Both the position numbers and the translations under genes were made by a program. This document shows, piece after piece, positions 4,136-39,978 of a stretch of DNA of 39,978 bases (positions are counted from its first letter, which is position 1; each line of letters starts with the position of its first letter). Below the pieces are notes generated by a model, which made no database searches, had not been told where the DNA came from, and was given only the letters and a program-made list of their open reading frames with translations. Source of the stretch: Rhodothermales bacterium (GTDB taxonomy: Bacteria; Bacteroidota; Rhodothermia; Rhodothermales; UBA10348); the NCBI GenBank assembly GCA_024711125.1, contig JANJTM010000023.1, forward strand, positions 1 through 39,978, given 5' to 3'.

Positions 4136-5451
4136 ACCCGGATCTCCTCGGCCCCCTGATGTTCGTCGGGGCGCTGCTCCTCATCTTCAGCGGCTTCCCG
4201 GTCGCATTCGCCCTCGGCGGAACGGCGCTCGTCTTTGCGTTCCTCGGCGTGGAACTCGGCCTCTTCGACTGGCACCTGCTGCTCGCCATGCCCGACCGCA
4301 CGTTCGGCGTCATGTCGAACTACGTGCTCCTGGCGATCCCGTTCTTCATTTTCATGGGCACGATCCTCGAGAAATCGCGCCTCGCCGAGGATCTGCTCAC
4401 CACCATCGGCGCCGTTTTCGGACCGCTCCGGGGCGGCCTCGCCCTCGCCGTCGTGTTCGTGGGAGCCCTGCTCGCCGCCGCTACCGGAGTCGTGGGGGCT
4501 TCCGTGGTCGCGATGGGCATGATCTCGCTCCCGGTCATGCTGCAGTACGGATACGGCAAAGAACTCTCCACGGGCGTCATCACGGCGGCCGGTACGCTGG
4601 GGCAGATCATTCCGCCCAGCGTCGTGCTCGTGGTGCTCGCCGACCAGCTCGGGGTCTCGGTCGGATCCCTCTTCATGGGCGCGTTCGTGCCCGGCGTGAT
4701 GCTGGCGGGCCTTTTTGCCCTCTACACCGTCGGCATCGCGGTCTTCCGCCCGAAACTGGCTCCGGCGCTGCCCCTGTCGGCGCGTTCGGTGAGCGGAAGG
4801 GCACTCGCCCTGCGCGTCATGAAGGTCATGATGCCTCCGCTCGTGCTCATCCTCCTGGTGCTGGGTTCGATCTTCGCCGGCGTCGCCACGCCGACCGAGG
4901 CGGGCGCGCTCGGCGCGCTCGGCGCGATGGGCCTTGCGGCGGCGAACCGGCGGCTCACGCTGGCCGCGGTGCGCGACACCATGGACGAGACGCTCAAGCT
5001 GACCGCCATGGTCATGTTCCTCCTGATCGGCTCGACCGCGTTCGCGCTGGTCTTCCGCGGGCTCAACGGCGACCTCTGGATCCACGACCTGCTCACGAAC
5101 CTTCCCGGAGGCGTCGTCGGCCTGCTGATCGTCGCGAACCTGGCGATTTTCCTCCTGGGCTTCTTCATCGACTTCTTCGAGATCGCGTTCATCGTGATCC
5201 CGCTCCTCGCCCCGGCGGCGGCCGCGCTCGGCATCGACCTCGTGTGGTTCGGCGTGATGATCGGAATGAACCTGCAGATGTCCTTCCTGACCCCGCCCTT
5301 CGGTTTCGCGCTCTTCTACCTGCGGGGGGTGGCCCCGCCCGAGATCCCGACGTCGACGATCTACCGGGGCGCCGTGCCGTTCATCGTGATCCAGGCGATC
5401 GGGCTGCTGCTCGTGATCCTGTTCCCGCAGCTGGTGAACTGGTCGTACTGA
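4132..5451 (+). CDS. dctM: TRAP transporter large permease subunit (DctM-like)
   Basis: The large membrane subunit of the TRAP transporter, forming the transport channel with DctQ. The 439-residue, almost wholly hydrophobic protein begins MNPDLLGPLMFVGALLLIFSG and shows the expected 11-12 membrane segments. Family motifs are present: SGFPVAFALGG near residue 20, AIPFFIFMGTILEKS near residue 70, the AAATGVVGASVVAMGMISLP region and ITAAGTLGQIIPPSVVLVV, and near the C-terminus GMNLQMSFLTPPFGFALFYL. It starts within the end of dctQ (ATGA). The downstream gene is convergent and 490 bp away, so the operon ends here. The substrate cannot be read from this subunit; the candidate binding protein suggests alpha-keto acids. 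Confidence 0.95.
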   Translation: MNPDLLGPLMFVGALLLIFSGFPVAFALGGTALVFAFLGVELGLFDWHLLLAMPDRTFGVMSNYVLLAIPFFIFMGTILEKSRLAEDLLTTIGAVFGPLRGGLALAVVFVGALLAAATGVVGASVVAMGMISLPVMLQYGYGKELSTGVITAAGTLGQIIPPSVVLVVLADQLGVSVGSLFMGAFVPGVMLAGLFALYTVGIAVFRPKLAPALPLSARSVSGRALALRVMKVMMPPLVLILLVLGSIFAGVATPTEAGALGALGAMGLAAANRRLTLAAVRDTMDETLKLTAMVMFLLIGSTAFALVFRGLNGDLWIHDLLTNLPGGVVGLLIVANLAIFLLGFFIDFFEIAFIVIPLLAPAAAALGIDLVWFGVMIGMNLQMSFLTPPFGFALFYLRGVAPPEIPTSTIYRGAVPFIVIQAIGLLLVILFPQLVNWSY

Positions 5452-5601: not shown

Positions 5602-5611
5602 GGGATGGCGC

Positions 5612-5750
5612 GGAAGTGGGATTTCGGGCCAAAGTCGACATATTGACCCCAAAAACCTGACGAAAATGTCGATTTTCGGCCCAAAGTCGACATATTGACC
5701 CCCGAAAACGGGTGAATACATGGAAAACCGCCCCCATTTTCCAATCCGGG
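5612..5750. repeat. Hairpin repeat array A, three units with 52 bp period
   Basis: Three units whose loop cores begin at 5624 (TCGGGCC), 5676 (TCGGCCC) and 5728 (CCGCCCC), exactly 52 bp apart. Units 1 and 2 share a 27 bp near-identical block (5624-5650 and 5676-5702) that includes AAAGTCGACATATTGACC. Unit 2 is a hairpin, ATGTCGA (5666-5672) pairing with TCGACAT (5687-5693). Unit 3 is a hairpin, TGGAAAA (5721-5727) with TTTTCCA (5737-5743). Unit 1 has a left arm GGAAGTG (5612-5618) that does not pair with its own right arm but equals the left arm of array B. The 52 bp period breaks reading frame, so it is not coding. It lies between the convergent dctM and DinB genes. The rest of the gene-free stretch, 5452-5581 and 5751-5941, shows nothing I can name. 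Confidence 0.85.
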
Positions 5751-30713: not shown

Positions 30714-30731
30714 AAAAAAATAAGGGGCAAG
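30714..30731 (-). terminator. Intrinsic terminator of the SRP RNA
   Basis: On the reverse strand the 3' arm of the RNA closing stem (CTTGCCCCTT end) is followed at once by a U-rich tract with seven consecutive T at 30714-30720. The closing stem and tract together resemble an intrinsic terminator built into the RNA end. Confidence 0.5.
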
Positions 30732-30824
30732 CTGACCGTATCGCGCCGCATCGACCTCCTACCGCTGCTGCCTTCCGGCCCTCACGGGATTCAGAGGGAG
30801 CTGGCCGTACGGGACTTGCCCCTT
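30722..30824 (-). ncRNA. ffs: Signal recognition particle RNA (4.5S-type)
   Basis: The small SRP RNA, which with Ffh delivers membrane proteins to the Sec machinery. On the reverse strand the apical domain IV core reads GAGGGCCGGAAGGCAGCAGC, matching the conserved bacterial pattern CAGG-x-CCGGAAGG-x-AGCAGC with its GGAA tetraloop. The two ends (AAGGGGCAAG at the 5' end, CTTGCCCCTT at the 3' end) pair perfectly for 10 bp. About 103 nt, the normal size of the bacterial short form without an Alu domain. It lies between the divergent glycosyltransferase and the flavoprotein gene. Confidence 0.93.
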
Positions 30825-30874
30825 GCGGGCGCCAACCGCGAACTGCCGGGATGGTTCCCGGCCGACGGGACGGC

Positions 30875-37593: not shown

Positions 37594-38607
37594 ATGCAAA
37601 TCCGTCTACCCTCGATCCTGGCCCTGGTGCTCGTTGCGGCCCCCGGGTGCTTTCCGTACGCCTGCAACCGCACCGAGACGCGGGCGATCGCGCCGGCCGA
37701 TTCGGTTTCGCGCGCGTTGGCGGCGGCGACGCCGGTCGACACGCTCGAGGTGCTCGGCGACGTGGGGGGAGCATTCGAGCATCCGCGCACGGTCGCGTTC
37801 GGGCCGGGCGGCGTGCTCTGGTTCACCGATACCGGGCGGAACAGCGTGTCGCGCGTCGATTCGACCGGCGCTGCGACCGAGTCCGTCCCCGACCACTTCG
37901 AATTCCCCTACCTCGCCGGTTTTCGGGGCGGAAAGCCGGTCGTGTACGCGGCCGGTCCGCGGCGGCTCGTCGGGCTGGACGACGACGGCGCCGAAGCCTG
38001 GTCGCAACCGATGCCGAAGGACGGCCCGGAAAAGGGCGCCCTGACGTACGCGCTCGTCACCGACCGCGGGTCCTGGTTCAAGGTGCTCGGCGAGGAGTTC
38101 GGCGGGCTGATCGTCGCGTTCGACAGCGCCGGCGCCGAAACGGGCCGCACGCCGCTCGGGGGCGCGTGGTGGCGCTGGGCCGGCTTCCTGCGCACGTGGC
38201 GGGGCGAGGCGTGGTCGCTCTCGGGCTATCGTCCGCTGCTTCACCGGATCGGCGAGACCCTCGGCGATTCGCTCGCGTTGCAGGGCTTCGACTCCCCGAT
38301 GCTCGCCCGCCTGCGCAGCTTCGAGCGCGGCGACGCCGACGCGCCCCCGCTCCTCACCGCGTCGGCGACGGGTGCGGACTCGGTCCTCTTCGTGCTCAAC
38401 ATGCGCCCCGGCTGGCTCAACGTCGATGTCTACGGTCCCGACGGACGCCTTCGCCGCATCCTCACCGAGCCGAACCCGGGGTTCGACAAGAACTTCTTTC
38501 CGACCGACATCGCGGCCCGCGCGTTTCCCGGCGGGGCGTACGAGATCGCCGTCACGGTCACGGAGCCCGAGGCCGGGGTGCGGAGGTACCGCTGGGCGGG
38601 GTTCTAG
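37594..38607 (+). CDS. Beta-propeller lipoprotein (NHL-like)
   Basis: A 337-residue secreted protein. The signal (MQIRLPSILALVLVAAPGC) ends in the lipobox APGC, Cys19 being lipidated. The mature part opens with a propeller-type repeat (FEHPRTVAFGPGGVLWFTDTGRNSVSRVD), the pattern of NHL/6-bladed propellers of bacterial secreted sensors, and continues with further degenerate blades (LAGFRGGKPVVYAAGPRRLVGLD, VDVYGPDGRLRRIL). No catalytic motif seen. Divergent from priA with 72 bp between; no convincing promoter for either in that gap. Confidence 0.78.
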   Translation: MQIRLPSILALVLVAAPGCFPYACNRTETRAIAPADSVSRALAAATPVDTLEVLGDVGGAFEHPRTVAFGPGGVLWFTDTGRNSVSRVDSTGAATESVPDHFEFPYLAGFRGGKPVVYAAGPRRLVGLDDDGAEAWSQPMPKDGPEKGALTYALVTDRGSWFKVLGEEFGGLIVAFDSAGAETGRTPLGGAWWRWAGFLRTWRGEAWSLSGYRPLLHRIGETLGDSLALQGFDSPMLARLRSFERGDADAPPLLTASATGADSVLFVLNMRPGWLNVDVYGPDGRLRRILTEPNPGFDKNFFPTDIAARAFPGGAYEIAVTVTEPEAGVRRYRWAGF

Positions 38608-38700
38608 GGCGCGTCTGCCCCCCGGTACGCGCGTGGTGCGTCCACGACCTCGGACGACGGGGTCGACGCGGCCATTTTCGCGATGTGCCGGCGGGCCCAT

Positions 38701-38883
38701 GTGGAAATTCGGCCCTATTTTCCACTTCCGGAGCCGTTTTTGGAGTGCGGAAGTGTAATCGAGGCCGTTTTTCCACTTCCGGAGCCGTTTTTGGAGTGCG
38801 GAAGTGTAATCGAGGCCGATTTTTCCACTTCCGGGGCCGTCTTGAGGGTGCGGAAGTGGAATTGAGGCCCGTATTCCACTTCC
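38701..38883. repeat. Hairpin repeat array B, four units with 51-52 bp period
   Basis: Loop GGCC cores lie at 38711, 38763, 38814 and 38866 (steps 52, 51, 52). Units are hairpins: GTGGAAA (38701-38707) with TTTCCAC (38719-38725); GGAAGTG with CACTTCC at 38749-38755/38774-38780 and at 38800-38806/38826-38832; and a perfect 11 bp stem GGAAGTGGAAT (38852-38862) with ATTCCACTTCC (38873-38883). Segments 38722-38767 and 38773-38818 are identical (46 bp). Between hairpins CACTTCCG can pair instead with the next CGGAAGTG across a GGAGCCGTTTTTGGAGTG spacer, so the array can fold two ways. Period 51/52 shifts frame, so it is not coding. It lies between the lipoprotein and recG; 38608-38700 and 38884-39025 show nothing I can name. 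Confidence 0.87.
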
Positions 38884-39066: not shown

Positions 39067-39978
39067 ATGCCGGAGTCCTTCCTCGACGAGCCCATCCAGT
39101 TCCTGAAGGGGGTCGGTCCGCGCCGGGCGAAGGCGTTCGAGGAGGCGGGCGTCACCACCGTGCGCGACCTGTTGCAGGTCTACCCGCGCCGGTACCTCGA
39201 CCGCTCGAGCATCACCCCGATCCGGCTGATCCGGGCGGAATCGGGTACCGTGACGGTGGTCGGAACCGTCCGCTCGGCCCAGACCGTGCCCGGGCGCGTC
39301 AAGCGCTTCGAGATCGTCGTCGAGGACGAGTCGGCCGCGCGCCTGCAGTGCGTCTGGTTCAAGGGCCTCGGGTGGATTCCGAAAGCCTTCAAGGTCGGCG
39401 ACCGCGTCGCCCTGCACGGCAAGCCGCAAGTCTACCAAAGCCGCGTCTCGCTCGCCCATCCGGACTTCGACAAGCTCGTCGACGAGGGCCCCGCGCTCGA
39501 CACCGGCCGCATCATCGCCCTCTACCCCGGCGGCGCCGCGTTCGACCGCGCGGGCATCACGAGCCGGCAGATGCGGCGCATCCTGTACGAACTGTTCAAG
39601 GAGCACGGCCTGAAGCTGCAGGATCCGTTCCCCGAGTCGCTGACGAAGCCGCTCGGCCTCATGGAAGGCCGCGTGGCGTGGCGCGCGGTCCACTTCCCCA
39701 AGTCGCAGGACGAACTGCGCGCCGCCCGCGCCCGCCTCATCTTCGACGAGTTCTTCTGGATCCAGCTCCTGCTCGCGCGGATGCGCCAGAAGCGCACCGC
39801 CACCCCCGGCCCCGTCTTCGGCGAGCCCGGCCCGCTCGTCCAGCGTTTCCTGAGCGAAATCCTCCCCTTCGAACTCACCGGAGACCAGCACGCCGCGATC
39901 GCCGACGTCGTGCGCGACACCCGCACCGGCGTCCAGATGAACCGCCTGGTGCAGGGGGATGTCGGAAGCGGTAAAACC
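39067..39978 (+). CDS. recG: ATP-dependent DNA helicase RecG (C-terminus cut by window edge)
   Basis: Remodels stalled replication forks and Holliday junctions. Only the first 304 residues are present of about 700. The N-terminal helix-hairpin part (PIQFLKGVGPRRAKAFEEAGV, with the typical DLLxxYPRRYLDRS) precedes the wedge/OB domain (about 55-150, with CVWFKGLGWIPKAFKVGDRVALHGKPQ), then the segment with FELTGDQHAAIADVVRD, and the window ends inside Walker A (GDVGSGKT). The ATG at 39067 gives the standard MPESFLDEPIQFLKGVGP start; the ATG at 39039 is in another frame. Confidence 0.94.
   Translation, partial: MPESFLDEPIQFLKGVGPRRAKAFEEAGVTTVRDLLQVYPRRYLDRSSITPIRLIRAESGTVTVVGTVRSAQTVPGRVKRFEIVVEDESAARLQCVWFKGLGWIPKAFKVGDRVALHGKPQVYQSRVSLAHPDFDKLVDEGPALDTGRIIALYPGGAAFDRAGITSRQMRRILYELFKEHGLKLQDPFPESLTKPLGLMEGRVAWRAVHFPKSQDELRAARARLIFDEFFWIQLLLARMRQKRTATPGPVFGEPGPLVQRFLSEILPFELTGDQHAAIADVVRDTRTGVQMNRLVQGDVGSGKT

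Follow-up and report, generated by a model that had tools for sequence, protein, structure and literature searches.

A dispersed family of three-dyad intergenic arrays in two related bacterial genera, with features expected of protein-binding sites

The window analysed here, a 39,978-nucleotide stretch from a Rhodothermales bacterium (contig JANJTM010000023.1), carries two arrays of short inverted repeats. Array B (38697-38883) comprises four dyads and is flanked by an unnamed gene at 37594-38607 and a recG-matching gene starting at 39067; TRF reports a tandem repeat across 38718-38883 with a period of 51 and a score of 253. The first dyad (38697-38729) has a degenerate left half-site, CCATGTGGAAA, followed by N11 and TTTCCACTTCC; the second (38749-38780) and third (38800-38832) read GGAAGTGTAAT-N10-TTTCCACTTCC and GGAAGTGTAAT-N11-TTTCCACTTCC, and the fourth (38852-38883) reads GGAAGTGGAAT-N10-ATTCCACTTCC. 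Three linkers of 19 bp lie within 38730-38851 (38730-38748, 38781-38799 and 38833-38851), and T5 stands at the centre of the first and second; neither dyads nor linkers of this array are assigned a strand.

Array A is a three-dyad element on the forward strand at 5609-5747, downstream of a TRAP large-permease gene that ends at 5451. It has a left-end half-site of B type at 5612-5622 (+, GGAAGTGGGAT), continues through internal half-sites at 5634-5644 (-, GTCGACATATT), 5663-5673 (+, AAAATGTCGAT), 5686-5696 (-, GTCGACATATT) and 5715-5725 (+, AATACATGGAA), and closes with a right-end half-site at 5736-5747 (-, ATTTTCCAATCC). Its length is near-constant over 25 aligned copies from the same genome. 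The analysis confirmed the original prediction that the two arrays share an architecture with a 51-52 bp period, that both contain TCGGCCC and that they are non-coding. The window also holds a small SRP RNA gene on the reverse strand at 30721-30828 (Rfam Bacteroidales_small_SRP, 90 bits), a match that hints at an origin on the Bacteroidota/Rhodothermota side.

We identified many further copies in the home genome (81 contigs, 3.79 Mb, 99.3% complete). Searches by blastn returned 68 and 47 matches (E<=1), and sequence-only profiles together with collected loci place about 25 copies of B and about 45 of A, about 70 in total, these numbers being approximate because matches overlap across both strands. 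The dispersed family that had been proposed from two arrays is thus extended, and further copies occur in a second genus, g10. A lack of further copies, named in the original prediction as a ground for refuting it, therefore does not apply. Each dyad consists of two inverted 11-bp half-sites flanking a GC-rich centre of 10-11 bp (spacer S2, often containing GGCC), while successive dyads are separated by spacer S1, which carries A5 or T5 amid GC-rich sequence. Both spacer type and arm orientation alternate along the arrays, and the dyads recur at 51-52 bp, a distance of about five helical turns. B elements contain 2-4 dyads at steps of 51 or 52 bp and A elements contain three, which is the commonest number overall. 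The A element is moreover constant in length and has B-like half-sites at both ends; when 25 copies are aligned, 24 columns are the same throughout, the remaining columns are free and the length hardly varies. Dyad detection allowed up to three mismatches, which inflates half-site identity and leaves the geometry unaffected.

The arms are the best-conserved part across copies and the loops and linkers vary, largely the inverse of the fixed loops and changing arms first described. The overall half-site consensus is approximately CGAMRTGKAAW, with cGAAGTGKAAW in B and ATAYRTCGAMT in A, and a core common to both, read at S2 dyads, is GTSGAAT / ATTCSAC. The arms of A and B had been called different, but they look like two versions of a single half-site. 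Exact half-sites (GAAGTGKAAW) number 128 in the home genome versus 4 for the reversed pattern, and nearly all of the places listed fall within arrays. An uptake sequence (USS/DUS), for which many single copies are expected, was rejected on these grounds. The spacers of the home genome share a loose common consensus, so that recent common descent of its copies is possible.

A B profile run over 27 genomes of the taxonomic family matched in the home genome and in genus g10 of that family (87 matches in G009, 14 in G018 and 6 in G014), with one weak match elsewhere. In G009 the element is reduced to its core, GTGKAAT-N10/11-ATTMCAC, and its geometry is strict: in 31 of 33 arrays the number of dyads is exactly three, 51 of the 64 centre-to-centre distances measure exactly 51.5 bp, and the spacers follow the order (11,10,11) in 25 of 31 arrays. 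The linkers of about 25 bp are fixed in length and random in sequence, with an identity between loci of 0.386 versus 0.359 for shuffled sequence and low information content. Several G009 loci (L168, L169, L171, L173, L176, L177, L179 and L184) are local tandem duplicates of whole three-dyad elements, and among these the linker identity is 0.66-0.97.

Across 114 genomes of the order, GTGGAAT-N9-12-ATTCCAC occurs 23 times in the home genome, 19 times in G009 and 3 times in G018, and at most once in any other; among 394 genomes of the phylum, those outside the two genera match the core dyad twice at most. A search of named genomes, the home genome left out, with the exact-arm pattern gave 10 scattered matches, about the number expected by chance. 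One match in viral contigs, which its ORFs apparently place within a gene of a phage of 45% GC, is also taken as chance. In another family, f15, two species carry single dyads that are one base apart (GTGGAATCATCCACATATTCCAC at L199 in G071 and GTGGAATCATGCACATATTCCAC at L203 in G050), possibly a conserved operator.

With gene calls from a simple codon-bias caller that was checked on the window, all 93 of the 93 elements examined lie outside genes. Between tandem genes the element is closer to the upstream stop than to the next start in 31 cases versus 8 (p=0.0003), the median distance from a stop codon being 115-157 bp, and flanking gene pairs are convergent in 26 cases and divergent in 13. 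The polarity of A relative to tandem genes is random (11 vs 8). Inspection of the context of other copies, which the original prediction had proposed as a check, revealed no recurrent flanking gene family among the neighbours, which are ordinary genes. Between the home genome and G009, one gene flanking the elements is clearly similar (L007/L168, at 60% identity), with weak domain-level matches besides; this sharing is at about chance level and the places are non-orthologous as far as examined, which suggests that copies move or turn over. The elements are spread over many contigs. Some lie near contig ends (L002, L011, L040, L043, L139, L147 and L153 in the home genome; L165 and L169 in G009), where arrays perhaps break assemblies.

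We propose, with a probability of about one half, that these chromosomal intergenic elements act as double-stranded DNA, as sites for a putative dimeric DNA-binding protein that would bind all six half-sites in a nucleoprotein complex. Linkers that are random yet exact in length, together with half-sites almost confined to arrays, point to a protein array on DNA, and the independent change of arm positions reported below fits sites read by a protein better than RNA hairpins. Moreover, half-site centres are about 21.5 and 30 bp apart, near two and three helical turns, so that the six half-sites would face one side; the putative protein would then occupy one face of the helix. The role of such a complex would be chromosome-organising or partition-like rather than regulation of neighbouring genes, a guess suggested by the distribution over many contigs, the random polarity to flanking genes and the extragenic placement. 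Set against the protein-site reading are the restriction to two genera, unusual for a core chromosome-organising system, the position nearer upstream stops, as in REP-like elements, places that differ between genera, and the loose spacer consensus of the home genome.

The main rival is a REP/MITE-like non-autonomous mobile element whose half-sites are read by a putative transposase, in which case the constraint would reflect mobility with no host function; we regard this as possible but not probable. It would fit a family that is dispersed, intergenic and patchy inside one taxonomic family, with positions that differ between genera and an alternating orientation like that of BIMEs (PMC2817692). 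Some copies, moreover, travel in mobile DNA. Six B loci of the home genome have longer flanks in common, and five of them (L008, L019, L022, L024 and L026) sit inside a MITE of 300-650 bp whose IS-like inverted ends, CTAGGGCGTGTTCACACTC...GAGTGTGAACACGCCCTAG (with variants), enclose B-array DNA and, in most, an HxlR-like gene fragment. L017 looks like the source locus of the captured HxlR-like gene part and the adjoining B array. In this MITE the array is a passenger beside captured host DNA, a point against the mobile reading. In G018 we found seven copies of a repeat of about 330 bp, most containing a dyad array; the loci concerned in G018 are L192-L195, L208, L210-L215 and L216:690-1100. 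Where seen, the left end is the junction CTAG|CAGTCTGTCGGAC and the right end is the outer edge of a dyad, and the repeat includes the first part of a truncated frame that resembles a transposase and that we take to be IS1182-like. A PF05598 transposase was rejected as the origin of this repeat; the home genome has none, and the locus of the one such gene in G018 lacks the end sequence of the repeat. These carriers show that arrays can hitch-hike, but leave the other copies unexplained, since those lack such ends.

Several expectations of the mobile reading were not borne out. No RAYT (Y1 transposase, PF01797) was matched in the home genome, while the control rings in 5/14. The 22 G009 elements examined have no target duplication, flank symmetry or flank inverted repeats, and for the family as a whole no terminal inverted repeats were found. 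The linkers of G009, unrelated between loci, indicate that no recent copying took place there except as local tandem duplicates. By inspection of the A, B and G009 alignments, no GTAG or CGTC tag stands at the palindrome end, CGTC within the A arms being one of three variants. The suggestion of a REP/REPIN-like element therefore holds as far as a dispersed, non-coding, REP-like repeat, but not for membership of those families, given the absence of PF01797 and of compensatory changes.

A structured non-coding RNA, or 3'-UTR hairpins serving mRNA protection or transcription ending, appears improbable and is disfavoured. Arrays A and B fold far better than shuffled sequence (z down to -5.6), and the placement towards 3' ends would suit such hairpins. 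The prediction that stems keep their pairing while their sequence changes was not confirmed by partner-shuffle tests: counts of Watson-Crick cells match the partner-shuffled values in A dyads (390 vs 398.6, 388 vs 386.8 and 879 vs 874.9), in the two kinds of B hairpin (505 vs 503.9; 518 vs 518.7) and in 89 distinct dyads of G009 (622 vs 640.1). Combinations at A columns 39 and 120 (CA 8, CG 7, TA 5, TG 5) are those of independence, and RNAalifold gave six pairs with a covariation term of +0.05 (nil). Variable arm positions thus change independently of their partners, so that selection on pairing is not supported and the structured RNA reading is rejected, the lack of covariation being the outcome that the original prediction had itself named as refuting it. 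The two variable arm positions of family A (alignment A1) read CG, TG or CA, with TA in 0 of 100 against 9.9 expected, a pattern at the level of the duplex, as if CpG decay or protein contact set the limit.

The RNA reading is further opposed by the random polarity and by the distance from stop codons given above. The arrays had not been recognised as a known family, and this stands: an Rfam search of the window at gathering score had no match for them, a permissive search with six representative loci (E up to 0.5) yielded only a sub-threshold ctRNA match, and terminator and promoter scans found 0 sites at both window loci. Where hairpins are predicted in alternating arrays, covariation should accordingly be tested before an RNA is proposed. 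Operators of a regulon, that is, transcription-factor sites, are very improbable: dyad half-sites with degenerate positions resemble operators, but no neighbour gene family recurs, convergent pairs outnumber divergent ones, and the elements are closer to stops than to starts.

Returning to the protein-site reading, we tentatively extend it, in a form that we think rather doubtful, to a lineage-specific system in which a putative protein reads an exact element of three dyads and six half-sites at some 60-70 places, each under selection, and thereby organises or segregates the chromosome. If true, the elements would constitute a new class of multi-site chromosomal address. More generally, exact geometry with randomised intervening sequence is a strong and cheaply obtained sign of proteins arrayed along DNA, and sets such elements apart from the many extragenic repeats usually filed as hairpins. 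An element of about 130 bp also offers a defined bait for finding the binder, and the contrast between the two genera a means of profiling the binder's gene.

Interspersed extragenic palindromes are a known kind of element, of which the three-dyad family appears as a new form relative to the limited open-access literature compared, where an earlier description is possible. BIMEs are composed of palindromic units in alternating orientation (PMC2817692), and REPs are tagged by GTAG or CGTC, the GTAG REPs accompanying RAYTs, although RAYT loss is reported in some REP hosts (PMC3733652). The present family resembles them in being intergenic, dispersed, regularly spaced, alternating in orientation, biased to the 3' side and species-limited. 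It differs in having no GTAG or fixed CGTC tag, no RAYT in the home genome and no compensatory stem changes, and in being mostly fixed at three dyads with exact 51.5-bp geometry. We therefore do not file it as REP, the tag, transposase and compensatory changes having been sought and not found, while its layout resembles that of BIMEs. REPINs likewise have two conserved inverted sites and a conserved spacer length, but compensatory changes are common in them (PMC3116915) and they have a RAYT, neither of which was found here, where several dyads in a row make up the unit. Prokaryotic MITEs are also short, non-coding and dispersed, and some family copies ride in one, but the copies themselves lack terminal inverted repeats and target duplications. 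In contrast to CRISPR arrays, half-sites here alternate in orientation and form about 70 short arrays. The res site of the Tn3 family also has three dyads of ~12-bp half-sites in about 120 bp, but it is single-copy beside the resolvase gene and unequally spaced, whereas the neighbours here are ordinary genes. The sopC centromere is built of 43-bp repeats to which a dimeric protein binds. Plasmid centromeres such as sopC and the pSM19035 heptads (PMC9499535) thus resemble the present arrays in their repeated tandem or inverted sites, a dimeric reader being only putative here; the elements described here, in contrast, are chromosomal and occupy about 70 places.
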